Assembly (NCBI RefSeq): GCF_005849285.1
Contig: NZ_CP040517.1
Coordinates: forward strand, 1,122,501-1,186,500
Length of the DNA stretch: 64,000 bases
Reading direction: 5' to 3'
From: Luteithermobacter gelatinilyticus
GTDB lineage: Bacteria > Pseudomonadota > Alphaproteobacteria > Sphingomonadales > Emcibacteraceae
Shown here: positions 33,989 to 58,919 of the stretch, in pieces
How the letters are laid out: each line of letters starts with the position of its first letter
How positions within the stretch are numbered: position 1 is the first letter of the stretch
The notes under the pieces: model-generated
What the model saw: the letters and a program-made list of their open reading frames with translations, nothing else
Database searches by the model: none
Told to the model about the DNA's origin: nothing
Made by a program: the position numbers and the translations under genes

Positions 33989-34744
33989 TTAAATGTATTT
34001 GCTAATTACATAGTGGATCAGCAGGTAACAGACCACCACCAGGGACAAGAGCAGGGTGCCAATGGACTTGATATTATCCAGAAATTGCTGAACCAGTGAG
34101 CGGGAAGGGATTTTGGCGGAAATGGCCGACCTGCCGGTATCCTCTGGGATAAGCCCGAGACTGTCGGAATTGTCGATATAGGCCAGCGGGTCGAGGGCGG
34201 CCGGGTCCTGCTCCATTTCTCCCAGTGCATTGATGATGGTGTGGCGGAAACTGAATTGTAATTGCAGGGAGTTGAAATAAATTGTTCGCAGGGAAGAGGA
34301 ATCGTTCATGCTGTCAAGAAAGGTGTTAAAATTCTGCTCCAGAAATTCCCCGCTTCTGACCATATGCGGCAACAGATGGGTTGTCATCATGTTTTGAAAT
34401 GCTTCTGAAGATGGCTGGGGCGGTGAATCTGACGGCGCTGGTCCGATTGTGGTGCCGCCGAACAGGGGCGAGGCGCTGGGACCCATGGTGCGGCTCAAGT
34501 CAAAAAAACCGCTGTCAATGAGTTCTGCGCTCAATTCGCCAGAGGCCGGAACGGGGGGAGGAGATGTCTGGGCAAAGGACGGCGCATAGTGGGAAATTAT
34601 GGCTGGCGGATTCTGATGGTCATAGCCGGGCGGTTTTTTCTGGTTTCTGAGTACTACGGCTTCTGCGGAAAGATTTTCCAGCACCAGCATGCAGAATGCC
34701 GACAACAACAAGAAGACTATGTGCGCGAGGGAGCTGTCTGCCAT
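33989..34744 (-). CDS. Unknown protein with terminal membrane segments
   Basis: A 251-residue protein I do not recognise. The N-terminal hydrophobic stretch (HIVFLLLSAFCMLVLENL) could be a signal or anchor. A low-complexity Pro/Ser-rich middle follows, and a C-terminal helix (GTLLLSLVVVCYLLIHYVI) ends two residues before the stop. The middle contains no cysteine and no obvious catalytic motif. It lies just upstream of, and divergent from, the PEP-CTERM acyltransferase gene, so a link to that locus is possible. Confidence 0.6.
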   Translation of the reverse strand: MADSSLAHIVFLLLSAFCMLVLENLSAEAVVLRNQKKPPGYDHQNPPAIISHYAPSFAQTSPPPVPASGELSAELIDSGFFDLSRTMGPSASPLFGGTTIGPAPSDSPPQPSSEAFQNMMTTHLLPHMVRSGEFLEQNFNTFLDSMNDSSSLRTIYFNSLQLQFSFRHTIINALGEMEQDPAALDPLAYIDNSDSLGLIPEDTGRSAISAKIPSRSLVQQFLDNIKSIGTLLLSLVVVCYLLIHYVISKYI

Positions 34745-35003: not shown

Positions 35004-35819
35004 ATGGGTAAGGTCATGAAATCCCCCGCCGACGCGGCCCACACAGAAAGCTCTTCGCAAAATCAGGAAAAAAACTCAGATTCACGTCTGGTGGAAGTTT
35101 ATCGGGAGCTTTTCGATGTGGTTCCGGCGGATACTCCTGAGCTCTTGGAAGAAAGTTACCGTTTGCGCTATCAGGTTTATTGCCTGGAAACCGGTTTTGA
35201 AAACAAGGATGATTTTCCGGACGGGCTGGAAATTGATCCTTATGATGGTCAGTCTGTAGCCAGTCTTTTAATTCATAAAAAATCGTCCATCGTGGCGGGA
35301 ACGGTGCGGCTGGTGCTGCCGAAAAAAGGTGGTGCGGAAATTCCAGCCCTTACCGTTTCCGAAGATTTGCGGGCTTTGGAATCCAAGGCCCTGCCTGTTG
35401 AAACGACCGCAGAAATATCCCGATTTACCGTATCGAAAAAATTCCGTCAGCGTCATTATGACACCCATATCGCCGGGCTCGAAGAAAATCTTCCGGATGA
35501 AAAAAATCAACGTGTGATCCCCCATATCACGCTAGGCCTGATGACGGCGATTGTCAGGATGAGTGTGGAAAATGGCATCACCCACTGGGCTGTGATTACG
35601 GAGCCGGCATTGCAGCGCCTGCTGAGAAAACTGGGGATTAAATTCAAGCCTGTGGGGCCGCTTATTGATTATCACGGCAAACGGCGCGCCCATTACAGTG
35701 ATATTGAAAGCCTTTTGAACGGCATTTATGAGGAACATCCGGACATCTGGAATGTCATTACAGAGTGCGGCAAACTCTATCCTTATACCGGCCAACATAC
35801 TGGACAACGTCAAAATTAA
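35004..35819 (+). CDS. PEP-CTERM/exosortase system-associated acyltransferase
   Basis: A 271-residue GNAT-fold protein of the TIGR03694 type. Key segments are LLEESYRLRYQVYCLETGFE, SSIVAGTVRLVLP, AEISRFTVSKKFRQR and ITHWAVITEPALQRLLRKLGI. The family is distantly related to autoinducer (LuxI-like) synthases and is found in genomes with exosortase A loci. Donor and acceptor are not established. An alternative ATG lies at 35016. PrsT1 follows after about 125 bases, then a ThiF-nitroreductase gene, probably as one transcription unit. Confidence 0.88.
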   Translation: MGKVMKSPADAAHTESSSQNQEKNSDSRLVEVYRELFDVVPADTPELLEESYRLRYQVYCLETGFENKDDFPDGLEIDPYDGQSVASLLIHKKSSIVAGTVRLVLPKKGGAEIPALTVSEDLRALESKALPVETTAEISRFTVSKKFRQRHYDTHIAGLEENLPDEKNQRVIPHITLGLMTAIVRMSVENGITHWAVITEPALQRLLRKLGIKFKPVGPLIDYHGKRRAHYSDIESLLNGIYEEHPDIWNVITECGKLYPYTGQHTGQRQN

Positions 35820-35945
35820 CGGCTTTGCAATAACTTTCTGCCATATTAGTATGAAAATATATTCATACAAAAACTTCCATCCGCGTCGGGCAAACCGGGG
35901 AGGTCCGGACTGTTCTGTGTGCGCAACTTTGGGACGAGGGGAAAT

Positions 35946-38771
35946 ATGTTAGGAACTGTCTCTTATAAAAAGAATACTCATACCGGTCTGATCAAAAAAT
36001 TTCTCTGTGGTACGGCTCTCTCCCTGACTTTATTGGTTTCCGCCTGTGACAATGCTGCGGACCTGACATTGGATGAGCGGTTACAGCGGGCGGTGGAACA
36101 GCAGTCCGAAGGCAACCTGGAAGCGGCAATCATTGAACTGAAAAATGCGGTGAATGATTATCCGGACAGCGTGGATGCCCGTTTTTTGCTGGGGCAGATT
36201 TTTCTGGAACTGGAAAATCCGGATGCGGCCGAAATTGAATTTGAAAAAGCCCGCGAAAATGGCAAGGATCCGGAGGCGTTGAGAATCCCCATGGCCAAGG
36301 TTTGGGTCCTGCAAGGAAATTATCAGAGAGTTCTGCAAGAGATCCAGGTGGAAGAAACGGATTCCCTACTGACAAAGGTCAATAAATACATTGTTCTGGG
36401 GAAGGCGCATTTTGGTCTGCGGCATATGGTCAAGGCCGAAGAATATCTGGAACAGGCGCTGCAACTTGCGCCTAATAATGTGGAAGCGTTGGTCAGCCGG
36501 GCGGAATTTCATTACGCCCAGAAAGAAAATGACAAAATTGCAGCCCTTGTGGCCCGGGCTGAGGCTCTGGTGCCTGGTGATCGCAAGTTACGGGAATTAA
36601 AAGGGCATTATGTCTGGGCGGAAGGCGACCATGAACAGGCCGAAAAGATTTTCGCCGAACTATCGCGGGATTTTCCCCATTTCGGCATTAATAAACTCTA
36701 TCTCGCCTGGCTTCAGATTATTAATGGAAAGCTGGAACGGGCCAGCAGCGCCTTGGCGGAACTGAGAGCGGAATATACCAATAATCCACTGGTGAATTAT
36801 GTCAGCAGCTTGCTGTTCCTGACGGATAAAAAATATAACGAGGCCAAGATATATGCCAGTAAGGCCCTGGAATACAATCCGGAGGATGTAAGAGCGTTAT
36901 ATATCGCCGGTCTTGCCACATTTGCGCTCAAGGAATATGAACAGAGTTATTCTTACATTTCCAAATACAGCACGCGCCTGCCGCAGGATCGTCGGGCCAA
37001 GAAAATGTTGGCGCAGATTCTATTCAACCTCAATAGAAGTGAAGAAGCCATAGCCACACTTGAACCTCTTGTTGAGGACAGGGCAGATGACGTTCAATTG
37101 CTGAATATGCTGGCTGAACTGGAACTGAGAAAAGGGAAGCTGGATCAATCACGGATTTATCTGGAACGTTCTCTGGAGGTAGACAAGAATCAGCCGGCGC
37201 AGCAACAGCGGCTGGGACAGCTCAGAATTGCCACGGGAGATGTGGACAGGGGGCTTCAGGATCTTGAAGCCGCTGTAGCAAACGCTAGCGAAAGTTATAA
37301 GGCCAAGATCAACCTGGTCCGGGGGTATATCGTTTCGGGACGGTATGAGGAGGCCATCACCGTCTGTCGCGCTTTGCAGCAGGAGGAGCCGGAAAATGTT
37401 AACGGCTTTCTGTGTGAGGGAGTGACCTATTTAAAACAGGGAAACCTGGGACAGGCGGAAACCATGTTGAAGAGCGTCCTGGACAAGGATCCGAAGAACC
37501 TGACTTCGGCAACCCTGCTGGTGGAGATTTTTTCATCTCAGAGAAAAAATGATGAAGCCGAACGCTATGTGGACCTGATTCTGAAACATTATCCGGACAA
37601 TACGCTGGCGCTTTTCAGCAAATATATTGCCCTGAAGCTAAAGGGACAAAATGATGATGCTTTGTCTTATCTGGAGCAAGCTGCCCGGACAGATCCCACC
37701 GCATACCAGGTTAATCTTATTCTGGCGCGAACTTATCTGAAACAGAACCGCCCGCGGGATGCTCAGGTGATCATGAAAAATCTTCTGCCGCTCTATCCGG
37801 CCAATACGGGACTGCTGGAGGTGGACGGCATTGCCAGGATGCAGTTGGGCGATTATCTGGGAGCGGCGGCGGCTTTTGAAAAACTGGTGAGCAATGCCCC
37901 TGAAAATATCAAGGCCCATCTTTACCTTGCTGGCGCCTATAACCGAAGTGGCAACTGGACAGGGTTGCAGGAGACCGCCCGGAAAATTCTGGCGCTGGCG
38001 CCGGACCATGACATCGGCAAGGCTCATTTGGCTAAGGCCTATTTCCAGCAAAACAAATGGGCCGAGGCAGATCAGGTTTTATCCTCGGTTTCTTCCGATG
38101 AATTGTATGTGAATGAAGTGCAGGGCCAGTTGAATCTGGCTTTGCGGAATTATGATAAGGCCGTCAAGAATTATCAGGTGATTTTTGAGACCGTCCCAGA
38201 TAACGCCAGTCTGTTTAACCTGGCCCGGGCTTATAACCTGGCGGGGCAGTCGGACAAAGCCGTCGCGCTTTTGACACGCTGGCAGGAACAACATCCTGAT
38301 GATCTGCTGGCGTCATCTGTGTTGGGGGACCTGTATCTTTCGAGGGAAAATTACAGTCTGGCGATCGCGCAATATAACCGGGTTTTGAAACACAAACCGG
38401 ATCAGCCGGCAATTTTGAACAATCTGGCCTGGACTCTCTATAAACAGGGGAATATAGATCGGGCTCTGGAACGAATCCGGCGGGCGCGGGATATTGCACC
38501 CGGGGCTGCTTATCTTCTGGATACGGAAGCCATGATCCTTCAGGCCAAGGGATACCATAAGGAAGCGGTGCGTCAGCTTCGAAAAGCTGTGGATCTGGAA
38601 CCGCGAAATCTGGAATACCGGTTTCATCTGGCTCAGGCCATTTACCGGGACGGAAAGATTGAGGAAGCCTTGCCCATTCTTGAAGAAATTCAGCGGGACG
38701 GGCGGGTGTTTCCGGGGCATACGGAAGCGATGCAGCTTCTGGAATCCATTCAGCGAGACAGCTTTCAATAG
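35946..38771 (+). CDS. prsT: XrtA/PEP-CTERM system TPR lipoprotein PrsT, copy 1
   Basis: About 941 residues, starting at the ATG after GAGGGG (a nine-codon upstream extension lacks a ribosome site). The signal ends in a lipobox (LTLLVSAC), so it is an outer-membrane lipoprotein. The rest is at least 20 TPR units, beginning with LDERLQRAVEQQSEGNLEAAI and AVNDYPDSVDARFLLGQIFLE, the signature start of PrsT proteins. The role is likely a scaffold for export or assembly of the exosortase-linked polysaccharide. A paralog of similar length lies at 47582-50362 and is not clearly lipidated. A ThiF-nitroreductase gene starts 15 bases downstream. Confidence 0.9.
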   Translation: MLGTVSYKKNTHTGLIKKFLCGTALSLTLLVSACDNAADLTLDERLQRAVEQQSEGNLEAAIIELKNAVNDYPDSVDARFLLGQIFLELENPDAAEIEFEKARENGKDPEALRIPMAKVWVLQGNYQRVLQEIQVEETDSLLTKVNKYIVLGKAHFGLRHMVKAEEYLEQALQLAPNNVEALVSRAEFHYAQKENDKIAALVARAEALVPGDRKLRELKGHYVWAEGDHEQAEKIFAELSRDFPHFGINKLYLAWLQIINGKLERASSALAELRAEYTNNPLVNYVSSLLFLTDKKYNEAKIYASKALEYNPEDVRALYIAGLATFALKEYEQSYSYISKYSTRLPQDRRAKKMLAQILFNLNRSEEAIATLEPLVEDRADDVQLLNMLAELELRKGKLDQSRIYLERSLEVDKNQPAQQQRLGQLRIATGDVDRGLQDLEAAVANASESYKAKINLVRGYIVSGRYEEAITVCRALQQEEPENVNGFLCEGVTYLKQGNLGQAETMLKSVLDKDPKNLTSATLLVEIFSSQRKNDEAERYVDLILKHYPDNTLALFSKYIALKLKGQNDDALSYLEQAARTDPTAYQVNLILARTYLKQNRPRDAQVIMKNLLPLYPANTGLLEVDGIARMQLGDYLGAAAAFEKLVSNAPENIKAHLYLAGAYNRSGNWTGLQETARKILALAPDHDIGKAHLAKAYFQQNKWAEADQVLSSVSSDELYVNEVQGQLNLALRNYDKAVKNYQVIFETVPDNASLFNLARAYNLAGQSDKAVALLTRWQEQHPDDLLASSVLGDLYLSRENYSLAIAQYNRVLKHKPDQPAILNNLAWTLYKQGNIDRALERIRRARDIAPGAAYLLDTEAMILQAKGYHKEAVRQLRKAVDLEPRNLEYRFHLAQAIYRDGKIEEALPILEEIQRDGRVFPGHTEAMQLLESIQRDSFQ

Positions 38772-38786
38772 ATACAGAGGGATCTT

Positions 38787-40820
38787 ATGACCCACCGGTT
38801 CAATTATGAAGAAGCCTTTTCCCGCACTTTGGGGTGGATTACGGAACGGGAACGGGAGCTGTTGCGCCATAAAAAAGTGGCCGTAGCCGGTATGGGCGGG
38901 GTTGGCGGGGCCCATGTCCTGACACTGGCGCGCATGGGGATTACCCGGTTCCATATTTCCGACATGGATGTTTTTGATCTGGTGAATTTCAACCGTCAGG
39001 CCGGCGCCTTCATGCACAGTCTGGGCCGGCCCAAGGTGGAGGTGATGGCGGAAATGATCCATGCCATCAACCCGGAATCGGAAGTCATCCAGTTTCCTGA
39101 AGGTGTGACCGTGGAAAATGTGGATGATTTCTTGGAAGGGGTGGATTTGTTTGTGGACGGGTTTGACTTTTTTGTCATGGATATCCGATGCGAGGTTTTT
39201 CGTCGTTGCCACGAACGGGGCATTCCCGCATTGACGGCCGCGCCGGTAGGGATGGGCACATCTTTATTAGCTTTTCTGCCGGGGAAAATGAGTTTCGAGG
39301 ACTATTTCCGGCTTGATGAAGAAAAAAAACGGGAAGACAAATATGTCAAATTCCTGATCGGTCTGACGCCACGGGCTTTGCATCCACCCTATCTGGTGGA
39401 CCCGGGGCAGGCCAATCTGAAGGAACAGCGCGCGCCATCCACGCCGGTGGGCATACAGTTGGCTTCGGGGTATCTGGTGGCCGAAGCGGTCAAGATCCTC
39501 CTGGGCCGCGATGGCGTAAGGGCGGCGCCCCATTATCAGCAGTTTGATGCCTATCGCCATAAAATGGTGAAAGGGTATCTGCCATTCGGCAATGCCAATC
39601 CGTTGCAGAAGATCAAATTTGCCATTGGAAAGAAGATATTTGCCCGGATCGCCCGGACATCGGTCGAAACCCAGGAGGCGGGCTCCCCGGCCACGGCGAT
39701 GGAACGTATTCTGGATCTGGCGCGCTGGGCGCCAAGCGGGGACAATTGTCAGCCTTGGCGATTTGAAAGGATCACTGACAGAAAAGTCAGGGTGTATATT
39801 CCGCCGATTGAGGCGGACAATCCTTATGAATATCATTTCGGTCAACCCACCTATCTTTCCGTGGGCATGATGCTGGAGACTATGCGCCAGGCTGCGGGAC
39901 AGGAAAAGTTGTCCATGAGTTGGAAACTAGCGGACGGGACCACATTGGACGGGACGGGAAAAATGATCGACGTCACCTTCCGGGCGCGTAAGACGGCGCC
40001 AGAAGGCCTGGTCCCTTTTATCCGCCTGCGTTCGGTGGATCGCCGGATCTATCGCCGCCAGCCCCTGTCGGAAATACAGAAAAAAACACTGGCGACCGAA
40101 CTTGGCGACAGTCTGAGGATTATCTGGCTGGAAGACGACCGGGAAAAGTGGAGGTTCGCAAAGGTCAATGCAATGGCAACCGATATTCGTCTGCGGCTTC
40201 AAAAGTGTTTTCGGGTGCATCGGAAAATCATCGACTGGCATGGGAAGGACAGTCCCGAGGGCATTCCCGCGGAAGCCACAGGCATGGATGCCTTGAGCAT
40301 CAAGATTATGAAATGGGCCATGCGGGACTGGCGGCGCATGGATTTCATGAATAAATATCTTGGTGGGACGCTGTTGGCACAACTACAGATGGACCTGTTG
40401 CCGGGATATTTCTGTGGCGCCCATTTTCTGATTTATCCTGAGACGCAGGAAAATTCGGAGTCTTCGACGGAGGCGGCCGTTGCCAGTGTGGAAGACTATC
40501 TCAAGATGGGGGAAAAGCTTCAGAAATTTTGGTTGCGGGCGACGGAACTGGGGCTGGTGATGCAGCCGTCATTGGCGCCGTTGTGTTTTTCCTATTATGC
40601 GGTGGAAAAGATCCCCTTTGCCGAGGGGGATGAGCGGCTTCAGGATAAGGCGGTGCGACTGCATAACAAACTGATGGAGATTTCCGCCCGATCCGATGGC
40701 AGACTGCCGGTTTTTGCCGGGCGGATCGGTTTTCCCGGCAAGGCCCGGAAAATCCCGCGCTCCAGTCGCAAACCACTTTCCGAGCTCTTGTTGCAGGATT
40801 CTAGAGTGCATTGTGAATAG
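38787..40820 (+). CDS. ThiF (E1-like) / nitroreductase fusion protein
   Basis: A 677-residue two-domain protein. Residues 1-~270 are an E1/ThiF-type adenylyltransferase: nucleotide loop VAVAGMGGVGGAHV (G35-G40), acidic D59/D61 and VNFNRQ. Residues ~300-650 are a nitroreductase-like flavin domain (MERILDLARWAPSGDNCQPWRFE). The mycobacterial protein annotated MoeY has the same order. Function is unknown; adenylation of a carboxylate followed by flavin redox chemistry is a reasonable inference. The last six codons (SRVHCE) and the stop lie in a CTAG repeat that interrupts the natural 3' end. Confidence 0.85.
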   Translation: MTHRFNYEEAFSRTLGWITERERELLRHKKVAVAGMGGVGGAHVLTLARMGITRFHISDMDVFDLVNFNRQAGAFMHSLGRPKVEVMAEMIHAINPESEVIQFPEGVTVENVDDFLEGVDLFVDGFDFFVMDIRCEVFRRCHERGIPALTAAPVGMGTSLLAFLPGKMSFEDYFRLDEEKKREDKYVKFLIGLTPRALHPPYLVDPGQANLKEQRAPSTPVGIQLASGYLVAEAVKILLGRDGVRAAPHYQQFDAYRHKMVKGYLPFGNANPLQKIKFAIGKKIFARIARTSVETQEAGSPATAMERILDLARWAPSGDNCQPWRFERITDRKVRVYIPPIEADNPYEYHFGQPTYLSVGMMLETMRQAAGQEKLSMSWKLADGTTLDGTGKMIDVTFRARKTAPEGLVPFIRLRSVDRRIYRRQPLSEIQKKTLATELGDSLRIIWLEDDREKWRFAKVNAMATDIRLRLQKCFRVHRKIIDWHGKDSPEGIPAEATGMDALSIKIMKWAMRDWRRMDFMNKYLGGTLLAQLQMDLLPGYFCGAHFLIYPETQENSESSTEAAVASVEDYLKMGEKLQKFWLRATELGLVMQPSLAPLCFSYYAVEKIPFAEGDERLQDKAVRLHNKLMEISARSDGRLPVFAGRIGFPGKARKIPRSSRKPLSELLLQDSRVHCE

Positions 40821-41204: not shown

Positions 41205-41966
41205 TTAGCCTTTACGCCGCCGTGCCACGGCAGCCATGCCAATCAGACCCAGTCCCAGAAGACCCAAGGCGGCAGGTTCGGACACAATGGTGCCACGCAG
41301 ATTACCCGTTCCGGAAATCGGGAAACCAGGACCTGCTTCTCCACCGCTCGGGCCGAAGGAGGAGGTGAACAGGAAGTCAGCAAGACCGCCCAGATTGTCG
41401 GCTACACCATCGGTGTTAAAGTTACCGGCAGCCATACCCCCAGTAACATCAAACAGCGCCAGACCGGAGTTGCCTGTGTCTGTACCGGTGCCAAAGTTGG
41501 ACACGTCGTCAGAGAACAGGGTGCCCAGAACACCATTGTGCAGATCTGTATGCCCTGCCAGGGACAGCCAGAGAGCCCCGTCAGTAGCCTGTGCCAGAGA
41601 CGGCGCTACCGGATTCCAGTCGGCATTGTAATCAATGTAGAAGTTTACCCAGCCGCCGGTGAAGGCGAGGTCAACACGGCCCACCAAATCGGGGGCGGAA
41701 ATGTTTGCCAGTGTGAAACCGCCGAATTCAAATGTCAGCTCGCACCCGGCGCAAATACCGGAAATGGCAGAGGTGTTGGTGTTGACAATACCAAAACCGC
41801 TCAGCACGTCGCCAAGATTCTGCACGGCTGTTTCATAAAGTGTAGAGGTCACAAGCCTGTTCTGACCAGGATTGATGTCTACCCCCCCGATATTGACGGG
41901 AGCTGCACTGGCGGCAGAGGTGCCAAGACCCAGAGCCATCGCTGCGGTAATCAAAAACTTTTTCAT
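41205..41966 (-). CDS. PEP-CTERM sorting-signal protein
   Basis: A 253-residue secreted protein. Sec signal MKKFLITAAMALGLGTSAASA, a beta-rich Gly/Asn/Asp-rich body with no catalytic motif, and a C-terminal PEP-CTERM signal: SEPAALGLLGLGLIGMAA then RRRKG. Exosortase A would cut near the SEP motif, releasing the protein to the cell surface or matrix. GGAAGG precedes the ATG. Upstream are a sigma-54 promoter and two 19-bp boxes, suggesting control by the adjacent PrsK/PrsR system. It is flanked downstream by a strong terminator. Confidence 0.92.
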   Translation of the reverse strand: MKKFLITAAMALGLGTSAASAAPVNIGGVDINPGQNRLVTSTLYETAVQNLGDVLSGFGIVNTNTSAISGICAGCELTFEFGGFTLANISAPDLVGRVDLAFTGGWVNFYIDYNADWNPVAPSLAQATDGALWLSLAGHTDLHNGVLGTLFSDDVSNFGTGTDTGNSGLALFDVTGGMAAGNFNTDGVADNLGGLADFLFTSSFGPSGGEAGPGFPISGTGNLRGTIVSEPAALGLLGLGLIGMAAVARRRKG

Positions 41967-42091: not shown

Positions 42092-42107
42092 TGCATGCTC
42101 TGTGCCA
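42092..42107 (-). promoter_or_regulatory. Sigma-54 (-24/-12) promoter for the PEP-CTERM gene
   Basis: The minus strand reads TGGCACAGAGCATGCA. GG and GC are exactly 12 bases apart, and TGGCAC plus TGCA fit the -24/-12 consensus. It would give a leader of about 115 bases to the PEP-CTERM start at 41966. The adjacent prsR encodes a sigma-54 activator. Confidence 0.72.
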
Positions 42108-42656: not shown

Positions 42657-44045
42657 ATGATCAGAATTTTTAAGCATTATATTCCAAAACCCCTGTTGTA
42701 TCTGGGCATGATAGAGTGCCTGATTTTATTTGCAGCAATCTGGGCCGGGATGCATATCCGGTTTTCCCAGGTGGGGATGAATTACGTGGGAATTTCCGGC
42801 TATGCTGTGGAAATGGGGTCCTTTGTGGTCATCGTCTATGTGGTGATGGTGGCGACGGGATTATACCAGCTGGACACCTGTCGGGATATGAGGCTATCGT
42901 TGCTGCGTCTGGTGACCGGGCTTTTCCTGGCTCTGGTGGCGATGTCTGTGATCATATATCTGTTCCCAGATATTGACCTCTGGCGGAGTGTGATGTTTTA
43001 CGCCTTTGTCTTTTCCGGCGGGGCGCTCACCGTCAGCCGCTTTATTTTCCAGCGCGTTGCGGACATGGAGCAGTTTAAGAAAAATGTGCTCGTGCTGGGG
43101 GCCGGAGACAGGGCACTGGAGGTAAAAAAAAGCGGTCAGGGGCGTTCGTCCCATGTAAAATTCTCCGGCTTTTTACGGATGGATGACAATGAAAATGCCA
43201 TTCCCGAAGCCATCCCCTATGAATCCCTTCCCTCCCTTCAGGACTTTGTACACCAGAATCATGTACAGGAAATTGTTGTCGCCATTCAGGAACGACGAGG
43301 GACCTTGCCGGTGGATGCGCTTCTGGATTGTCGCATGGACGGGTGTGAAGTCACGGATTCCTCGTCTTTTATCGAACAGCAGACCGGCACGCTCAATCTG
43401 GATACCATCAGCCCGGGCTGGCTGATCTTTGCCGATGGTTTCGGGGGAGGGAAAAAATTCGATCTGGCCCTCAAACGCCTTTTCGATATTTCTGCCAGTT
43501 TACTCGTATTGCTCAGCACCATGCCCATTCTTATCCTTACGGCGATTCTGGTGAAAACCACCAGCCGCGGCCCGATCTTTTACCGTCAGCAGCGGGTGGG
43601 ATTGAATGGTAAATATTTTGACGTGATGAAGTTTCGCAGCATGACGATGGATGCGGAGAAGGATGGCATACCTCAATGGGCGGGGAAAAATGACAGCCGG
43701 GTTACCGCAGTAGGCCGCGTTATTCGGACCACCCGAATAGATGAGATACCGCAGGTTTTTAATGTTCTGAGAGGCGATATGAGTTTTGTCGGTCCGCGCC
43801 CGGAACGGCCTTATTTTGTTGAGAAACTGGGCAAAAAGATCCCCTATTACCATGAACGCCACCGGGTTAAGCCGGGAATTACCGGCTGGGCGCAATTGAA
43901 TTATCCTTATGGGGCGTCGGAGGAAGATGCGCGCAGAAAACTGGAATATGACCTGTATTATATTAAAAACTATTCAGTTTTTCTGGACTTTCTGATTCTG
44001 ATTCAGACGGTGCGGGTGGTATTGTGGCCTGATGGGGTGAGGTAG
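42657..44045 (+). CDS. XrtA-system undecaprenyl-phosphate sugar transferase (TIGR03013 type)
   Basis: A 462-residue polyprenyl-phosphate hexose-1-phosphate transferase that starts polysaccharide synthesis on the lipid carrier at the inner membrane. N-terminal membrane helices (about residues 10-140), a Rossmann-like middle domain ([14 protein letters not shown]), a further helix, then the catalytic WcaJ-type domain: [63 protein letters not shown] and [17 protein letters not shown]. It heads the run to prsK, which follows six bases after its stop. Confidence 0.93.
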
Positions 44046-44050
44046 GCCCG

Positions 44051-46156
44051 ATGGAAGAGATTTTCAACGCAACAGGCTTTTATACCTATGCGGCTGCTGC
44101 GGTGGCCTATTTGGGGTTGGCGATTTTTCTGCTGAGTGTTCATGGAGAAAGCAAAGCCCGCAGGAATCTGGCCTGTGTTCTGCTGGTCAGTGTAATTTGG
44201 GCGCTTACCCATTGTTATGCTTATTGGCAAGGCGGGCGGGCATTTGTTTTCCTTTCCCTGGTGGAATATTTAAGAAACAGCGCCTGGATATTCCTGTTTC
44301 TGTATATGCTGTCCGCCCTGGCCCTGGCGCAACAGGCCGTTAAATTCTCCCGCCTGGCTGCCATTGTCTTTTCCGTCTTTTTCGGTCTTCTGTTGATCGT
44401 GGAGCTGGTGCATCTGGGATATGCTTTCGGCTATGTGGAGATGACGCTGGGGGTTACCTTTTTCCAGTATGAGAAGCTGATACAGGCCATTCTTGTGGTG
44501 TTGATGGTGGAAAACCTTTATCGCAGCACCCTGCCGGAAAACCGCTGGAGCATCCGGTATTTGTGCCTGGCGGTTGTCGCGCTCTATGTCTATGACTTTC
44601 TGCTGTATGCGGATAATATCCTGTTTACCGCCATTGGACCAGTGCTGTATGAGGCCAGAGGGCTGATCAACCTGCTACTGATTCCACTGATCGGCGTGTC
44701 CGCTCTCAGAATGACAGACAAGACACCAAAATTTCAAATCTCCCGCAAGCTGGCGTTTCATACCATTACCCTGATCGGCAGCGGCGCCTATCTGATCGGC
44801 ATGTCGGCTGCCGGATATTTTCTTCGGGAATATGGGGGGCGGTGGGGCAACCTGCTTCAGGCGACGGTTCTGGTGCTGGCCGCCTTGGGGCTTGTGGTGA
44901 TTCTGGCGTCCGGAAAGTTTCGCGCCTGGCTCAGGGTGGTGATGAGCAAGCACCTGTTTCGCTACAAATATGACTATCGGGAAGAATGGTTGCGGTTTAT
45001 CCGGACCATTTCGTCTTCCGATCATCATTATGGGTTGCGGGAAAGAACTATTCAGGCGGTGGCGGATATTATGGACAGCCCCGGTGGTGCTCTGTGGCTT
45101 AAGGAGCGCCCAGACAGCTTTGTCCTGTCGGCCAAATGGAACATGCACCCCAGACAGGACAATGAGCTTCCGGTGAGCGCCCCTTTTATTGAGTTCATGG
45201 AACGGGAAGAGTGGATTGTCGATCTGGAAGAAGTGGACGATGGAAAAATCAGTGGCACCAACTGCCCTATCCCGGACTGTATACTGACTGAACCGGGGGT
45301 CTGGTTGGTGTTGCCGTTGATACACCATGACCGTATGGTTGGGTTTATGGTGCTACAGGAACCCCGGGTTGCCCGGGATCTGAACTGGGAAAGCAAGGAT
45401 TTGCTGAAGATTGTCGGGCGGCAGGTGGCCAGTTATCTGGCGGAACAGATTGCCGAGAAGGCGTTGGCCGAAGCTCGCGAGTTTGAAGGGTTCAACAAAA
45501 GATTTGCTTTTGTGATCCATGACATCAAAAATCTGGCTAGTCAGTTGTCCTTGCTGGTCAAGAATGCCGAAAAACATGCCGACAATCCGGAATTTCAGCG
45601 GGATATGCTGCTGACCGTTCAGGACAGCGCCCGCAAGATGAATGATCTACTGTCCCGGATCACCGTGGTGCAGGAACCGTCTAAGGAAAAAAGACGGGAA
45701 GTGCATGATTTGGTGATAACCCTTGAGGCCCTGTTGCACCGATATCGTCAGAGCGGCACGGAAATTCGTTTTGAGAACGGTTATGACGAGATGAAGGTCC
45801 TTGGGGACCCGGAAAGCCTGGAAACCATTTTTATGCATCTGATTCAAAATGGCATCGACGCCTGTGATGAACAGCGCTGTGAAGTTCAGGTCAGTTTGTC
45901 AGCGGAAGAGGACTATGCCATTATCAGGGTCAAGGACAATGGTAAAGGCATGGACGAGGCATTCATACGGGACGAGCTGTTTCGGCCCTTCCGTTCTACC
46001 AAGGAAAAGGGCTATGGCATCGGCGCCTATGAAAGTCGCGAAATGATCCGGCGGATGGGGGGGCGTCTGGATGTCAAAAGCACCCCTGGCAAGGGGACCG
46101 TTATGACGGTTTATCTGAAAAAGGCCGATGAGTTAGAGTTAAATGAAGGAAGGTAA
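44051..46156 (+). CDS. prsK: XrtA/PEP-CTERM system histidine kinase PrsK
   Basis: A 701-residue sensor kinase. About eight N-terminal membrane helices (residues 10-300), a GAF-like domain (around 330-460), a phospho-acceptor site VIHDIKNLASQL with H490, and a C-terminal HATPase (VKDNGKGMDEAFIRDELFRPF, GYGIGAYESREMIRRMGG). The layout is that of PrsK, which pairs with PrsR to control exosortase-linked genes. GAGG lies upstream of the ATG. prsR begins nine bases after the stop, so they are co-transcribed. The signal sensed is unknown. Confidence 0.93.
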   Translation: MEEIFNATGFYTYAAAAVAYLGLAIFLLSVHGESKARRNLACVLLVSVIWALTHCYAYWQGGRAFVFLSLVEYLRNSAWIFLFLYMLSALALAQQAVKFSRLAAIVFSVFFGLLLIVELVHLGYAFGYVEMTLGVTFFQYEKLIQAILVVLMVENLYRSTLPENRWSIRYLCLAVVALYVYDFLLYADNILFTAIGPVLYEARGLINLLLIPLIGVSALRMTDKTPKFQISRKLAFHTITLIGSGAYLIGMSAAGYFLREYGGRWGNLLQATVLVLAALGLVVILASGKFRAWLRVVMSKHLFRYKYDYREEWLRFIRTISSSDHHYGLRERTIQAVADIMDSPGGALWLKERPDSFVLSAKWNMHPRQDNELPVSAPFIEFMEREEWIVDLEEVDDGKISGTNCPIPDCILTEPGVWLVLPLIHHDRMVGFMVLQEPRVARDLNWESKDLLKIVGRQVASYLAEQIAEKALAEAREFEGFNKRFAFVIHDIKNLASQLSLLVKNAEKHADNPEFQRDMLLTVQDSARKMNDLLSRITVVQEPSKEKRREVHDLVITLEALLHRYRQSGTEIRFENGYDEMKVLGDPESLETIFMHLIQNGIDACDEQRCEVQVSLSAEEDYAIIRVKDNGKGMDEAFIRDELFRPFRSTKEKGYGIGAYESREMIRRMGGRLDVKSTPGKGTVMTVYLKKADELELNEGR

Positions 46157-46165
46157 GACAAGAGC

Positions 46166-47524
46166 ATGCCTGAGAATAAAAAAAGAAAACTGCTGGTCGT
46201 AGAAGATGACCCAGGACTGCAACGGCAGTATAAGTGGAATTTTGAAAAATATGAGGTGCTCATTGCGTCTGACCGTGAGGAGGCGATGAAAATTGTCACC
46301 CGGGATAATCCGGCTGTGGTCACCTTGGACCTGGGGCTGCCGCCGGACCCGGACGGGGTGTCAGAGGGAATGGCCTGTCTTGAAGAAATTCTGGGCCATG
46401 CGCCCTATACCAAGGTCATTATCGCTTCCGGGCACGGCGCCCGGGAAAGCGCCTTGAATACCATCTCTCTGGGAGCGTATGATTTTTATCAGAAACCGGT
46501 TGATCCCGATGAGCTTGGCCTGATTGTGGACCGGGCGTTCCGATTGTATGACCTGGAAGAAGAAAACCGGAAGCTTGCCGCCTCCCAGCAAACGGCGCGC
46601 CTGGGGAAAATCATCACGGGCAGCGAAAGCATGGAAAAGGTCTGCAGTATTATTGAGCGGGTGGCGCCGACCAATGTGACAGTTATGCTGCTGGGGGCGA
46701 GCGGCACCGGTAAAGAGCTTCTGGCCCGGGGCCTGCATGATCTGAGCGATCGGAAAGACAAACCCTTTGTGGCGATTAACTGTGCGGCGATCCCTGAAAA
46801 CCTCCTGGAAAGTGAACTGTTTGGATATGAAAAGGGAGCATTTACCGGCGCGGTGAAACAGACGCCGGGAAAGATTGAAGTGGCCAATGGTGGCACCCTG
46901 TTTCTGGATGAAATCGGGGACCTGCCGTTTCAGCTTCAGGTCAAGTTGCTGCGGTTTCTGCAGGAACGGGTCATTGAACGGATTGGCGGGCGCAAGGAAA
47001 TCCCGGTGGATGTTCGTGTGGTCTGCGCCACGCATCAGGATCTCGAATCGCATATTGCCGAAGGATTGTTCCGGGAGGATTTATTCTATCGCCTTAGCGA
47101 AATCGTTGTAAATATCCCACCGCTTGCCGAACGGGACGGGGATGCGGTGCTTTTGGCCCATAACTTTTTGAATAAATTCAACAAAGAGTTGAAAAGAAAT
47201 ATCCGCGGATATACCAAAGAGGCAATTTCTGTAATTTCTTCCTACAATTGGCCAGGAAATGTGCGAGAATTGGAAAATCGCATCAAGCGGGCCGTAATCA
47301 TGTGTGATGGCAAAAAAATCGACGTTGGTGACCTGGAAATGAAAATAGAGGACAGCGAAGAAGAGATCCTCAACCTGAAGCAGGTGCGTGAGGCCGCTGA
47401 TATCAAGGCAATCCGCAAGGCGCTGGCCTGTGCCAACGGGAATGTCAGCCATGCCGCGAAACTTCTGGGCGTCAGCCGTCCGACGTTTTATGGTCTGATC
47501 AAACAATATAATTTGTCAGTGTAA
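46166..47524 (+). CDS. prsR: PEP-CTERM-box response regulator PrsR (sigma-54 activator)
   Basis: A 452-residue NtrC-class activator. Receiver domain with phospho-acceptor D55 in VVTLDLGLPPD; AAA+ domain with Walker A GASGTGKELLARGLH, sigma-54 loop EKGAFTGAVKQ and FLDEIGDLPFQLQVKLLRFLQ; Fis-type helix-turn-helix at the end (NVSHAAKLLGVSRPTFYGLI). It is preceded by prsK and a GGAAGG ribosome site, and followed by prsT. The sigma-54 promoter and paired 19-bp boxes about 4 kb away, ahead of the PEP-CTERM gene, are the most obvious local targets. Confidence 0.94.
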   Translation: MPENKKRKLLVVEDDPGLQRQYKWNFEKYEVLIASDREEAMKIVTRDNPAVVTLDLGLPPDPDGVSEGMACLEEILGHAPYTKVIIASGHGARESALNTISLGAYDFYQKPVDPDELGLIVDRAFRLYDLEEENRKLAASQQTARLGKIITGSESMEKVCSIIERVAPTNVTVMLLGASGTGKELLARGLHDLSDRKDKPFVAINCAAIPENLLESELFGYEKGAFTGAVKQTPGKIEVANGGTLFLDEIGDLPFQLQVKLLRFLQERVIERIGGRKEIPVDVRVVCATHQDLESHIAEGLFREDLFYRLSEIVVNIPPLAERDGDAVLLAHNFLNKFNKELKRNIRGYTKEAISVISSYNWPGNVRELENRIKRAVIMCDGKKIDVGDLEMKIEDSEEEILNLKQVREAADIKAIRKALACANGNVSHAAKLLGVSRPTFYGLIKQYNLSV

Positions 47525-47581
47525 CGGCAGATCGTTTCCAGGCGAGTGGCCGGCACGGACAAACAGAATAGGGGAAAGACA

Positions 47582-50362
47582 ATGAAAAATTTAATGATTG
47601 CCACGTCCGTTGCCGCCATACTGGCAACAGCAGTCCCTGTATGTGCCGCGGTGGGGAATGGCCCGGGGGCCGAATATATCGAAGAGGCGCAGGAATATCT
47701 TAAGAAAGGGGATCTGGAAGCTGCCATCATCCAGATGAAGAATGCCGTGCGGGCAGACCCCGACAATGCCAGCATCCGACAGGATCTGGGCAATCTCTAT
47801 ATCCGCCGCGGCGATGCCTTGTCTGCTGAAAAGGAATTGAGCCGAGCGCTCAAACTGGGTGGAGCCAATGACGCTCTAGTGCTGGACCTTGCCAAAGCCT
47901 ATCTGATGCAGCGCAAATATGATGAGGTTCTCTCTCTGGTCAAGCTTGACGAGATCGGCGAGAGGTATCAGGGAGATGCCCATCTGATTATCGGCAATGC
48001 CTATCAGGGGCTCAATGATCTGGAGAGCGCGCTGCGTTATTATGAAAAAGGGGAAGAAATCAAAGGACGCAATGACCAAATTGCCGTTGGCATTGCCCAG
48101 ATTTATAACATCCAGAAGGAATATGAAAAGGCCGAGGCCAAGGTGGACCAGGCGCTGGAGCTTAACCCGAAAAACGTGCAGGCGCTGCTGCTTAAAGGGG
48201 AACTGATTCATCGGTTGCAGGGGCCACAACATTCCCTGGAATATTTTGAGAATGCCCTCCAATACGCGCCCAACAATGTTACAGCCCAGATCAAGAAAGC
48301 TGGCGTTCTTTTTGATCTGAAACGGGATGAGGAGGCGCTGGGACAGCTGGATGAGACGCTGAAGCTTTCTCCGCGGCATCCGCTGGCGAATTATCTGGCC
48401 GCCATTATTTATGCCCGCAGGAACAGCCCCGACAAGGCCACGGAATTTCTGGACAGAGGCGGGAGCACTCTGGACAAATTTCCGCCGGCGCTAATGCTGC
48501 GCGGGGTGATTAACTATTCTGGCGGAAATTACGCCCAAGCCATTTATTATCTCAATCGTCTGATTGATATGCGGCCTGGGCATATCATGGGACGGCGCCT
48601 TTTGGGCGCGGCCCTGATCCGGCAAAATGATCCGGAACAGGGCATCAAGATTCTTGAACCGCTGGTGGACGCGAACAAGGCGGATTCAGTGGCCTATGCC
48701 CTGCTGGGAAGCGCCTATATGAAACTAGGGCAATATGAGGAGGGAACCCGTTATTATGAAAAGGCGGTGGAGGCCAAACCCGGCGAAAGCCGTCTGCAGA
48801 CCCAGTTGGCGCTCAGCCGCCTGGCGGTAGGAGACACTTCATCGGCGGAAGCACAGCTTAATGAGATTCTGGCCAATGATCCCGAAGCTTCGCAGGCGGC
48901 GGTTTTCTTGGTGCTGATCGCGCTGAGGGAAGGGAATTATGCCAAGGCTCTGGAAGATGCAAAACGCCTCTCCCGACAACGACCGGAAAATCCCGTGGGA
49001 TATAATCTTCAGGGCACGGCGCTTGCCGGTCTGGGAAAAATCGAAGACGCCAAAAAAATGTTCAATAAGGCTTTGGAGATCAAACCGGATTATCATTCGG
49101 CCAATCTCAACCTGGCCCAGCTTTATATTAATGAGGGCAAACGGGACCAGGCCCGGGAAATTTATGAAAACGTTCGGGAGATGGACAAGAAAAACCTGGG
49201 GGCCATTTTGGGGTTGGTACGCCTGGCGGCCCTGGACGGCAATGTCAAGGGCCAGGAAACCCTGCTTCAGGAAGCTGTGAATGTGGCGCCTGATAATCTT
49301 TCTGTCCGGGTTCAGCTCTCCGAACTTTATCTGAAAGAAAAGGAACTGGAAAAAGCGAAGGCCGTGGCGCATGAAATGACCCAGGATTTTCCGGCAAGCG
49401 GCGCGGGATATGAGGCATCGGGGAAACTGGATCTTCTGATGGGGGATACCGCTTCCGCTGTCGGCAACTTTCAGAAAATGGTTGGGCTGATTGGCAAGAA
49501 CCAGGATGCTTATCAACTCCTGGCACGGGCCCAGCGGGCAAATGGAGATTTCAGCAGCGCCCGGCGCACCTATAAGGAAGCTCTTGAATTTGCCGAAAAC
49601 AAACCGCCTTTGCTGGTGGATCTGATACAGTTGGAAAAATCCCAAAACAACTTTACGGCGGCCCATGCGCATCTGGAAACATTGGAAGAACTGGATGACG
49701 GGGCCCTGACCTATATCCTGAAAGGACAGGTTCTTGAGGCAGAAAAACGCATGGAGGAAGCCATACAGGCGTATCAGACGGCCGAAAGCAAGGGGGCGGG
49801 AGGCACTAAATTTGTGATCGACTATGCGGACGCCTACCGGGAATATGGCGATACGGGCAAAGCCGAGGAAATTCTTCTCGCGCATCTTCAGAAACACGAC
49901 ACTGATGCCGCGGTGCGGCACGCATTGGCAAGCATGTATTTGACAGATAACCGGCTGGATGAGGCCATCCGGGAATACGAGCTCCTGCTTCAATATAATG
50001 ACCAGGATGCGCTAACGCTGAATAACCTGGCCTGGCTGTATTCTCGGAAAAACAGTATGGATAAGGCGCTGCAACTGGCGCGGAAGGCCTATGAGGTGAT
50101 CCCGGACAATCCGTCTGTGACCGATACCTATGCCTGGATTCTGGTCCAGAACGGCGACAATGAAAAAGGGCTCGAACTGTTACAGAAGGCGGTGGCGAAA
50201 ATGCCGGAAAACATGGAAATCCGTTATCATCTGGCGGTGGCTCTGAAAAATCTAGGGCGCCATGAATCGGCCCGTCGGGAGCTTGAAAAAGTCGTGACCT
50301 CGGGCGTGCGGTTTAACGGTGTGGAAGAGGCCCGGCAAATGCTGATGAATCTGTCCAACTGA
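47582..50362 (+). CDS. prsT: XrtA/PEP-CTERM system TPR protein PrsT, copy 2
   Basis: About 926 residues from the ATG after GGGGAAAG (a longer frame from 47546 has no ribosome site). A signal peptide MKNLMIATSVAAILATAVP lacks a convincing lipobox, although a Cys follows closely. TPR units fill the rest, from EEAQEYLKKGDLEAAIIQMKN to the C-terminal NLAWLYSRKNSMDKALQLARK. It parallels copy 1 at 35946-38771 over its whole length, including the opening DLEAAII/NAV pattern. Position directly after prsK-prsR is typical. It probably works at the periplasmic face in export or assembly. Confidence 0.92.
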   Translation: MKNLMIATSVAAILATAVPVCAAVGNGPGAEYIEEAQEYLKKGDLEAAIIQMKNAVRADPDNASIRQDLGNLYIRRGDALSAEKELSRALKLGGANDALVLDLAKAYLMQRKYDEVLSLVKLDEIGERYQGDAHLIIGNAYQGLNDLESALRYYEKGEEIKGRNDQIAVGIAQIYNIQKEYEKAEAKVDQALELNPKNVQALLLKGELIHRLQGPQHSLEYFENALQYAPNNVTAQIKKAGVLFDLKRDEEALGQLDETLKLSPRHPLANYLAAIIYARRNSPDKATEFLDRGGSTLDKFPPALMLRGVINYSGGNYAQAIYYLNRLIDMRPGHIMGRRLLGAALIRQNDPEQGIKILEPLVDANKADSVAYALLGSAYMKLGQYEEGTRYYEKAVEAKPGESRLQTQLALSRLAVGDTSSAEAQLNEILANDPEASQAAVFLVLIALREGNYAKALEDAKRLSRQRPENPVGYNLQGTALAGLGKIEDAKKMFNKALEIKPDYHSANLNLAQLYINEGKRDQAREIYENVREMDKKNLGAILGLVRLAALDGNVKGQETLLQEAVNVAPDNLSVRVQLSELYLKEKELEKAKAVAHEMTQDFPASGAGYEASGKLDLLMGDTASAVGNFQKMVGLIGKNQDAYQLLARAQRANGDFSSARRTYKEALEFAENKPPLLVDLIQLEKSQNNFTAAHAHLETLEELDDGALTYILKGQVLEAEKRMEEAIQAYQTAESKGAGGTKFVIDYADAYREYGDTGKAEEILLAHLQKHDTDAAVRHALASMYLTDNRLDEAIREYELLLQYNDQDALTLNNLAWLYSRKNSMDKALQLARKAYEVIPDNPSVTDTYAWILVQNGDNEKGLELLQKAVAKMPENMEIRYHLAVALKNLGRHESARRELEKVVTSGVRFNGVEEARQMLMNLSN

Positions 50363-50464: not shown

Positions 50465-51667
50465 GTGAATATTTTATTTGTCAGCCACAGATTTCCTTAT
50501 CCTCCCACAAGAGGCGACAAGATCCGTTCCTTTAATATGGTCCGCCATCTACATGCACAGGGCCACAAGGTCACGGTGGCGTCTCTGGCGCGTTCGGGGG
50601 ATGAGGCGCAGGAGGCCAGGGGCATAGAGGCGTATTGTGAAAAATTTATCTGCGTGCGGGTCAGGGAAAGCGTGCAGAAACTGCGCATGGTGGGCTGCCT
50701 TGCGGGACGTGTTCCGTCTTCCATGGGGTATTTTTATGCGCCACAGTTGAAGCAGCGGATTGAGCAGGAGCTGGCACAAAAATCCTATGATCTGATTATT
50801 GTTTTCAGCTCCTCGGCAGCGCAATATGTGGAAAATGTTCGCCATATCCCCAAAATTCTGGATTTTTGCGATATGGACAGCCAAAAATGGCTGGCTTATG
50901 CTAAATTCAAACGGTTTCCGCTTAATCTGGGATATTGGCTGGAAGGCCAGAAACTTCAGGCTGAGGAGAAGAGACTGGCCCGCCGGTTCGATCTGTGTAG
51001 CTGTGCAACCGGCTTCGAGGTGGAAACGCTGGAAAATTATGGCACGGGGGTTGCCACGGGTGTTTTCCCCAATGGGGTGGACAGTACGTTTTTCCAGCCT
51101 GCCAGTGAAGGCTTCCGCAAGCACCATATCAGTTTTGTCGGCCGCATGGATTATTATCCCAATGAGGCTGCTGTAATCTTTTTTGCCCGTGAGGTCCTGC
51201 CGCAATTGCGGGACAGATATCCGGATGTAACTTTTACCATCATTGGTGCAGAACCGCCGCGGGTGGTGCAGGATCTGGCCCAACTGCCCGGCGTGACAGT
51301 GACCGGTACGGTGGATGATGTGCGCCGTTATATTCTGGAAAGCGAGGTCATGGTGGCACCGCTGGCTATTGCACGGGGCACACAAAATAAAATTCTTGAG
51401 GGCATGGCGTTGGGGGTGCCGGTCATCAGCAGCGCCCTTGCTGCGCGCGGGGTGGATGCCATCCCCGGCGAACACCTTCTGACAGCAACCACTGCGGAAG
51501 ATTACGTCAAGCAGGTCAGCCGTCTGTTCGACGACCCCGTGGCCCGGGAAAGGATGGCGCTTGCCGGACGCGAGCGGGTGCTCAGCCACCATAACTGGGA
51601 CCGGGCCATGCGCATGTTCGATGCCCTCATTGATCGTTGCATGACGCAGGGGGCAAAAGCGGCCTGA
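50465..51667 (+). CDS. XrtA-associated glycosyltransferase, TIGR03087 type
   Basis: A 400-residue GT-B glycosyltransferase of family 4 type. The start is GTG with GAGGT upstream. It opens with ILFVSHRFPYPPTRGDKIRSF, characteristic of TIGR03087. The C-terminal half has SFVGRMDYYPNEAAVIFF, VMVAPLAIARGTQNKILEGMALGVPVIS and a conserved Glu in the NKILEGMA donor-site motif. It would add a sugar to the lipid-linked repeat in the cytosol. It is followed by the TIGR04063-type gene on the same strand. Confidence 0.92.
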   Translation: MNILFVSHRFPYPPTRGDKIRSFNMVRHLHAQGHKVTVASLARSGDEAQEARGIEAYCEKFICVRVRESVQKLRMVGCLAGRVPSSMGYFYAPQLKQRIEQELAQKSYDLIIVFSSSAAQYVENVRHIPKILDFCDMDSQKWLAYAKFKRFPLNLGYWLEGQKLQAEEKRLARRFDLCSCATGFEVETLENYGTGVATGVFPNGVDSTFFQPASEGFRKHHISFVGRMDYYPNEAAVIFFAREVLPQLRDRYPDVTFTIIGAEPPRVVQDLAQLPGVTVTGTVDDVRRYILESEVMVAPLAIARGTQNKILEGMALGVPVISSALAARGVDAIPGEHLLTATTAEDYVKQVSRLFDDPVARERMALAGRERVLSHHNWDRAMRMFDALIDRCMTQGAKAA

Positions 51668-51724: not shown

Positions 51725-52969
51725 ATGCACATATTGCACGTATTTGATCATTCCATCCCCTTGCATAGCGGCTATACCTTTCGCAGCTACCAGATTTTGA
51801 AAGAGCAACGCAGATTGGGGTATGAGACATTGCAGGTCACCGGTCTGAAGCAGCATAGTGGGGGCCAGCAGGGGGAGGGCTCCAGAGAGAGGGTCGAAGA
51901 CCTGGAATTTTTCCGCACCACCCGTTACAACGCCGTCCTCAATGGACTGCCGGTACTGGGGCAGATGGAAGTTGTCCGCAGCCTGAAAAAAAGGCTCCTG
52001 GAAATCCTTGATCAGAATCCGGTGGATGTCATTCATGCCCATTCGCCGGCCCTGAATGGTCTTGCGGCGCTTGCGGCGGGGCGGGCCAGGGGCATTCCTG
52101 TGGTTTATGAAATCCGGGCCTTCTGGGAAGATGCTGCCGTCAGTCACGGCACCTGCCGAGAGGGAGATTTGCGGTATCGTCTGAGTCGCTGGCTGGAAAC
52201 CCGCGTGGCGCGCCAGGCTGATGCCGTGACCTGTATTTGTAACGGGTTGAAACAGGATCTTGTGGCGCGCGGCATATCTTCGGATAAGATTACAATTATC
52301 CCCAATGCCGTGGATATTGCCAGCTTTTCCGGTCCCCGCGCCCCCGATCCGGATTTGCAGGATCGGCTGGGTCTGCGTGATGCCGTGACCCTGGGGTTTA
52401 TCGGTTCCTTTTACGACTATGAGGGACTGGATATTCTGTTGGACAGCCTGCCGCTGATCTATCAGGAAATCCCGCAGGTGCGTCTGCTGCTGGTGGGCGG
52501 CGGGGAGAAAGCCGAAAGCCTCAGGCATCAGGCCCGCACACTGGGCCTGGAAGACCGCGTGATTTTCACCGGGCGGGTGCCCTATGACCAGGTGCAGACT
52601 TATTATAATCTGGTGGATATATTTGTGTATCCGCGCAAGAAGATGCGTCTGACCGATCTGGTCACCCCGCTAAAGCCATTGGAAGCCATGGCCCAGCATA
52701 AACTGGTGGCCGCTTCGGATATTGGCGGGCATCACGAACTGATTACCGATGGCGTAACGGGCACATTGTTTCGCCCTGACGATCCCCGGGATCTGGCACG
52801 GTGTCTGGTGGATTTGCTGCATCGTCGGGATGATTGGCCGGCCATGCAGGCGGCCGGGCGGCGATACGTGGAGCAGGAACGGAATTGGGCACGCAGCGTG
52901 GCCAATTATCCCGCAATTTATGCACGGCTCGCTCAGCCAGCAGCGACGTCTAGAGTGAATTGTGCATAG
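51725..52969 (+). CDS. XrtA-associated glycosyltransferase, TIGR04063 type
   Basis: A 414-residue GT-B enzyme with ILHVFDHSIPLHSGYTFRS at the start, as TIGR04063 proteins have. GFIGSFYDYEGLDILL and PLKPLEAMAQHKLVAASDIGGHHELI are the donor-binding segments. The last six codons (SRVNCA) and the TAG stop come from the 40-bp CTAG repeat, so the original C-terminus has been replaced by repeat sequence. It is convergent with the TIGR03088-type gene, and both ends meet in that repeat. Confidence 0.92.
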   Translation: MHILHVFDHSIPLHSGYTFRSYQILKEQRRLGYETLQVTGLKQHSGGQQGEGSRERVEDLEFFRTTRYNAVLNGLPVLGQMEVVRSLKKRLLEILDQNPVDVIHAHSPALNGLAALAAGRARGIPVVYEIRAFWEDAAVSHGTCREGDLRYRLSRWLETRVARQADAVTCICNGLKQDLVARGISSDKITIIPNAVDIASFSGPRAPDPDLQDRLGLRDAVTLGFIGSFYDYEGLDILLDSLPLIYQEIPQVRLLLVGGGEKAESLRHQARTLGLEDRVIFTGRVPYDQVQTYYNLVDIFVYPRKKMRLTDLVTPLKPLEAMAQHKLVAASDIGGHHELITDGVTGTLFRPDDPRDLARCLVDLLHRRDDWPAMQAAGRRYVEQERNWARSVANYPAIYARLAQPAATSRVNCA

Positions 52970-54114: not shown

Positions 54115-54340
54115 AGGGGAGACTGGCCTGAACGCATAAAGAAGATTTGGTCTTTGTTAGTCTTTTGTTTCCATAAAAACAGTAATACTACTGACTTGGG
54201 AATAAAATAACTATAATATCCGTAAATTAATATTAACATATCCGGGATCCTTATCAGGTTGGAATGATCCCGAAGCTTAGGATCCGGGCCTTGCGCAGAA
54301 CATGCCGGGATCGGGGGCATTAATTGCGAGGGTGGGTAAC

Positions 54341-58734: not shown

Positions 58735-58919
58735 TCCTTGTTTGCTAAAAGTGTCTTATGGGTGCTGTCAAACAGGCTTCCGTACAGGGCGCAAACGCGG
58801 TATAATGGCGCGCGCGTCATAAGGCTGTCATAAAATCAGGTTTATTATGCGCCAGAGACGAGGATTTCATATGCATATGAATGAAATCTGATCGAATCTG
58901 TTCAGGAAGGAGATTGACT

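Follow-up and report, generated by a model that had tools for sequence, protein, structure and literature searches.

What might an acyltransferase, a TPR lipoprotein and a fusion of a ThiF domain to a nitroreductase-type flavin domain be doing together among exopolysaccharide genes? The question is raised by three open reading frames that lie in a row on the forward strand of Luteithermobacter gelatinilyticus, in a stretch of 64,000 nucleotides that we refer to as the window. Translation of the window gives products of 271, 950 and 677 amino acids for these frames, of which the second begins with a GTG start and is separated from the third by 15 bases (Table 1). The gene calls of the earlier note on this DNA, with three same-strand genes, their families and the 15-base spacing, coincide exactly with the reading frames and profile matches obtained here. 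We consider it quite likely that the operon specifies a pathway to N-acyl amino acid oxazolones (azlactones), set among the exopolysaccharide genes of an XrtA/PEP-CTERM system.

Table 1. Positions of the operon, its surroundings in the window and the partner genes of TIGR03694 at other loci.
Feature	Position	Strand	Evidence
TIGR03694 acyltransferase, predicted N-acyl amino acid synthase (OxzA/TrzA role)	35004..35819	+	TIGR03694 243.7 bits (curated cut-off 111.95)
PrsT-type TPR lipoprotein, first copy	35919..38771	+	TIGR02917 578.7 bits (cut-off 312)
ThiF-nitroreductase fusion, predicted oxazolone synthetase (OxzB/TrzS role)	38787..40820	+	PF00899 and PF00881
PEP-CTERM surface protein, convergent neighbour	41205..41966	-	PF07589 match
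Sigma-54-like promoter TGGCACAGAGCATGCA, upstream of the PEP-CTERM gene	42092..42107	-	score 18.5 of 20.5
TIGR03013 XrtA/PEP-CTERM system glycosyltransferase (EpsB_2)	42657..44045	+	548 bits
PrsK histidine kinase	44051..46156	+	TIGR02916 673 bits
PrsR sigma-54-dependent response regulator	46166..47524	+	TIGR02915 704 bits
Second PrsT-type TPR protein	47546..50362	+	TIGR02917 670 bits
TIGR03087 XrtA-system glycosyltransferase	50465..51667	+	454 bits
TIGR04063 XrtA-system glycosyltransferase	51725..52969	+	594 bits
Vanillyl-alcohol-oxidase/4-cresol-dehydrogenase-like flavoprotein near or beside TIGR03694	L121:12504-14105, L120:3952-5580, L122:4536-6152, L166:5016-6656, L168:5295-6950, L169:5426-7054, L163:11896-13527		
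MMPL-type exporter beside divergent TIGR03694	L124:5451-7796, L125:7373-9712, L126:7288-9555, L127:3149-5506		
dCache_3-GGDEF sensor protein next to or near TIGR03694	L172:3973-6435, L173:8020-10854, L174:4489-7311, L175:9623-12544, L176:4457-6244		

The acyltransferase also carries FeeM and autoinducer-synthase Pfam matches, both above cut-off, and a lipobox (LVSAC) can be read near the N-terminus of the PrsT translation. Within the third product, the ThiF domain occupies approximately residues 1 to 285 (PF00899, 137 bits, residues 15 to 259) and the flavin domain approximately residues 300 to 665, with the nitroreductase match itself (PF00881, 37.8 bits, residues 302 to 341) inside a long Acg/Rv1355c-like domain. 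Structure prediction of this 677-residue fusion from its single sequence gave a mean pLDDT of 37.7. Scanning genome contigs with the fusion protein alone gave just three relatives, weak or partial, and profile searches of genomes were used instead. Divergent from the operon, a 251-residue hypothetical protein (33989-34744, reverse strand) has no family match and a partial homologue in locus L112.

The pairing of the two enzymes recurs far beyond chance, as the earlier note had proposed to check. Among 149 genomes of the same order, all 19 that hold a ThiF-nitroreductase gene (scores from 158 bits upwards, against 65 for the next best match) fall within the 27 that hold TIGR03694 above its cut-off (Fisher p ~5e-18, relatedness ignored). 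Across a phylum sample of 349 genomes, the ThiF gene was found in 12, TIGR03694 in 24 and both in 11 (Fisher p ~1e-13, again ignoring relatedness). Gene order is constant in the order sample, the acyltransferase lying upstream of the fusion on the same strand in 17 of 17 assessable genomes once contig-end cases are left out. Measured between profile matches, the distance is 56 to 334 bases in nine of these, where the genes are adjacent, and 2.9 to 3.1 kb in the other eight, where one gene intervenes. That intervening gene is PrsT at every locus read, and all such cases belong to the window's own family; a PrsT homologue sits between both enzymes in the family-f1 loci L101-L104, L107, L110 and L112. 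Direct adjacency is most simply taken to be the ancestral arrangement. Among the ten phylum-sample genomes that hold both genes, not counting the window's own, the two are directly adjacent in six; in G155 and G480, and probably in G472, ThiF and nitroreductase are encoded by two consecutive genes, and in G454 and G468 ThiF adjoins the acyltransferase with no nitroreductase beside it. The trees of the acyltransferase and of ThiF also correlate (r = 0.80 over 27 loci), and we do not take this as proof of coupling: at the nine loci for which a control gene was available the correlation is 0.95, not clearly above the 0.89 to 0.90 obtained with a glycosyltransferase from the same taxa, and vertical inheritance could account for it.

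The best single indication that these activities work together, and in an XrtA setting, comes from a natural fusion. DVUL_RS15680 (PRK14852, 989 amino acids), from plasmid pDVUL01 of Nitratidesulfovibrio vulgaris DP4, combines a FeeM domain (N-acyl amino acid synthase, 150 bits), a ThiF domain (168 bits) and a nitroreductase domain (35 bits) in that order, and its gene adjoins TIGR03013, XrtA chain-length and PEP-CTERM genes. Like the window, it thus places an N-acyl amino acid synthase, ThiF and nitroreductase within an XrtA/PEP-CTERM locus; unlike the window, it does so in a single polypeptide, and its acyl domain is of the FeeM type and not TIGR03694.

When these genes are compared with characterised relatives, a chemistry can be proposed. 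The earlier note had likened the fusion to mycobacterial MoeY, which is Rv1355c, a ThiF-flavin fusion of the same type that is now named TrzS and cyclises and desaturates N-acyl tryptophan, with TrzA as its partner acyltransferase (PMC12856293). The TrzAS pair of mycobacteria and rhodococci (Rv1356c/Rv1355c) resembles the window in having the acyltransferase gene 5' of the fusion and in keeping the key Asp, Arg and Gln residues; it differs in the absence of any described exosortase context, in its acyltransferase subfamily and in its tryptophan substrate and short chains. The same chemistry is performed on tyrosine or phenylalanine by OxzAB in Pseudoalteromonas rubra and by TyzACB in Mycobacterium tuberculosis (PMC10404671). 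By the description given in citing papers (de Rond et al. 2021, via PMC10404671 and PMC12856293), OxzAB is likewise a two-gene arrangement of acyltransferase and ThiF-nitroreductase fusion in a proteobacterium, against which PrsT between the enzyme genes stands out as a feature of the window's family. Features by which OxzAB and TrzAS are recognised are found here, namely a ThiF-type cyclase and a nitroreductase-type flavin domain in the fusion and an N-acyl amino acid acyltransferase in the same operon. The earlier statement that this set of genes has no established function is therefore outdated, the OxzAB/TrzAS kind of oxazolone pathway having become known between 2021 and 2025, and the suggestion that the operon could make an acylated small molecule agrees well with the pathway predicted here from sequence.

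By analogy with these relatives, the acyltransferase would first N-acylate an amino acid, which is probably aromatic, with acyl-ACP or acyl-CoA as the donor of the fatty acyl group. The ThiF domain of the fusion would then adenylate the free carboxylate with ATP, allowing the amide oxygen to attack and form a 5(4H)-oxazolone, and the nitroreductase-type FMN domain of the same protein could perform an O2-dependent alpha-beta desaturation to yield a conjugated product. PrsT would be a TPR lipoprotein of outer-membrane type that belongs to the XrtA system and probably shares a transcript with both enzymes; its position alone suggests a link to the pathway product. That product might act as a signal, as a surfactant or antibiotic, or as a donor of acyl groups to the coat.

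Conservation of the active sites is consistent with such a scheme. Glu137 of the acyltransferase, predicted to be catalytic, is present in 39 of 39 homologues having a residue at that position. Invariant residues comprise G35, G37, G38, V39, G40, R70, K83 and D127 across 29 ThiF domains, and P316, S317, D319, N320, Q322, R415, R419, Q593 and R646 across 22 flavin domains. In TrzS of M. smegmatis, mutants of Asp217, Arg540 and Gln651 lose activity or turnover (PMC12856293). The residues of the mycobacterial relative L144 that align with D127 and R468 of the window are 323 positions apart, exactly the interval from 217 to 540, and a further 111 residues on, exactly the interval from 540 to 651, comes the Gln that aligns with Q593; from this identical spacing, D127, R468 and Q593 are most likely the counterparts of the three TrzS residues. 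Alignment and spacing thereby place in the window's fusion the ATP-contact Asp and the flavin-site Arg and Gln needed in TrzS. All three are invariant in the window family, and some other mycobacterial TrzS relatives, for which the comparison covered the key residues, carry His or Ala where the Gln would be. The adenylation and flavin sites of the fusion are both conserved across homologues.

The pairing of an E1-like with a flavin enzyme had also led the earlier note to think of azoline/azole peptide modification; by the general likeness of such domains, modification of a ribosomal peptide in this way, or a part in molybdopterin or thiamin synthesis, might be considered. We regard any such role as extremely improbable. 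Peptide-azole chemistry is disfavoured because a search of the whole genome gave no match to YcaO, and the recurrent partners of the fusion are N-acyl amino acid synthases. Activation of a sulfur carrier in the manner of MoeB or ThiF was rejected as well: the fusion scores 50 to 82 bits against the curated ThiF and MoeB models, far below their cut-offs of 152 to 377, and its ThiF domain has two cysteines only (135 and 141), with no zinc-binding CxxC pair.

A more serious alternative concerns the end product, which could be a ring-opened N-acyl dehydro-amino acid if the oxazolone were formed only in passing, to ease desaturation, before being hydrolysed. Clusters of Thalassotalea, Massilia and Stieleria hold the same three activities and give dehydrotyrosine products with no oxazolone seen; producers of thalassotalic acids, kyonggic acids and stieleriacines have ThiF and nitroreductase genes, yet only N-acyl dehydro-amino acids have been isolated from them (PMC12479983). 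The stieleriacine cluster of Stieleria maiorica (PMC7293339, PMC12479983) shares with the window synthase, ThiF, nitroreductase and PEP-CTERM genes, with exopolysaccharide genes near; it differs in its separate ThiF and nitroreductase genes, its methyltransferase, its four synthases, its phylum and its isolated products, which are not oxazolones. Oxazolones are easily hydrolysed or alcoholysed during extraction, a lability that suits a transient and equally means that their absence elsewhere may be an extraction artefact, and OxzAB, TyzACB and TrzAS do give oxazolones if extraction avoids acid and alcohol. A dehydro-amino acid as the true end product is a possibility to be kept in mind, though a doubtful one.

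The oxazolone pathway would here operate within a surface-coat system. Downstream of the operon lie PrsK and PrsR, three glycosyltransferases, a PEP-CTERM protein and a second PrsT that is 25% identical to the first, so that the earlier description of an exosortase locus holds for these XrtA-linked components. It does not hold for the exosortase itself, of which there is no gene in the window: the sole exosortase gene of the genome, XrtA fused to EpsI, lies at 1.878 Mb, approximately 0.7 Mb from the window (1.12-1.19 Mb), with FemAB, deacetylase, ATPase and tyrosine kinase genes as neighbours. Alongside this one XrtA-EpsI gene, the genome has seven PEP-CTERM matches over cut-off. Elsewhere in the window are a 948-residue protein with a very long GGDTGGDT repeat run and no NCBIfam match (27838-30684, reverse strand) and, on the forward strand, a weak ZorA-like match of MotA/TolQ type (54302-55948) and a small frame with a weak IscB/Cas9 endonuclease-domain match (58881-59507), both far below model cut-off.

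The tight and recurrent position of the operon within XrtA polysaccharide loci raises the idea that the oxazolone is an activated acyl donor for free amines, for example on deacetylated exopolysaccharide or with the help of a FemAB-like protein, by which a lipid-aromatic group would be fixed to the coat. Azlactones are established to react with amines, and the genome has XrtA deacetylase (TIGR03006) and FemAB-type (TIGR03019) genes. Against this, the operon includes no transferase, the deacetylase and FemAB genes are the ones approximately 0.7 Mb off, and TrzAS and TyzACB function without such a locus, so we hold this use of the oxazolone to be quite unlikely.

A link of N-acyl amino acid synthases to PEP-CTERM/exosortase loci is credited by PMC4897644 and PMC7293339 to Craig et al. 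in 2011; the synthases adjoin such genes as in the window, and the citing texts, unlike our analysis, mention no ThiF-nitroreductase partner. In the limited literature accessible to us we found no published tie between an exosortase and an oxazolone synthetase, and the exosortase-system context of the latter looks new.

The proximity of PrsR, a sigma-54-dependent regulator, raises the question of how the operon is controlled. A consensus scan finds a sigma-54-like site, TGGCACN5ATGCA, 141 bases 5' of the convergent PEP-CTERM gene and at the 99th percentile of background. This gene has a homologue at the corresponding place in L101, L104, L107 and L110, with similar sites 103 to 121 bases 5' of it. 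The same scan found no site above the background range before the acyltransferase operon in the window or its relatives, which led us to reject sigma-54 control of the operon; it probably stands outside direct PrsR/sigma-54 control, despite adjoining those genes.

Further insight is gained from loci where TIGR03694 has other partners. In some genomes without ThiF, the place of the partner is taken by an FAD protein that closely resembles 4-cresol dehydrogenase (270 bits) and vanillyl alcohol oxidase (195 bits) and is apparently non-homologous to the ThiF-nitroreductase partner. It occurs in three f4 genomes of the order and in four phylum-sample genomes, three of which have it immediately beside TIGR03694. 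Members of this flavoprotein family act on phenols with a para substituent, which makes N-acyl tyrosine as the substrate in those genomes a fair inference, and no more. An MMPL exporter lies beside a divergent TIGR03694 acyltransferase in four family-f1 genomes, before the glycosyltransferase where the contig allows, and a similar MMPL gene, split into two frames, is present in G008 (L101:2607-4870), which bears the ThiF-nitroreductase gene. The tyz cluster of M. tuberculosis adjoins mmpL9. No MMPL gene is found in the window's operon, and many are present elsewhere in the genome.

In five other sampled genomes a dCache-GGDEF sensor protein, in four cases with EAL, is encoded within approximately 2 kb of TIGR03694, and it is possible that the two form a pair of lipid signal and sensor. 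Mycobacterial trzAS adjoins cyclic-di-GMP genes, and a metagenomic N-acyl amino acid synthase is fused to a PilZ domain. Together with the autoinducer-synthase match of the acyltransferase, these neighbourhoods could be taken to mean that the operon makes a LuxI-like signal, tailored by the ThiF-nitroreductase protein and read by PrsK/PrsR or a cyclic-di-GMP circuit. We think this unlikely, as the window's operon shows no LuxR-type or dCache receptor and the sigma-54-like site belongs to the PEP-CTERM gene. The flavoprotein, exporter and cyclic-di-GMP sensor alternatives, like the sigma-54-like site on the PEP-CTERM gene, are apparently undescribed in the literature within our reach. It could be speculated, at rather low probability, that XrtA systems carry an exchangeable lipid-amino-acid module of TIGR03694 and a variable partner, be it oxazolone synthetase, para-phenol flavin oxidase, MMPL exporter or cyclic-di-GMP sensor, and that the oxazolone here serves the coat itself, either as a signal or as a reactive acyl donor that modifies polysaccharide.

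The oxazolone chemistry proposed for this operon is of a recently described kind; what is unusual is its consistent wiring into a surface-coat system. For oxazolone lipids the enzymes are known and the role is not; the association of TIGR03694-type genes with exosortase loci, noted in 2011, likewise lacks a known purpose. The recurrent operon brings these two puzzles together: across this proteobacterial order, acyltransferases of the exosortase-linked type are most often accompanied by a predicted oxazolone synthetase.
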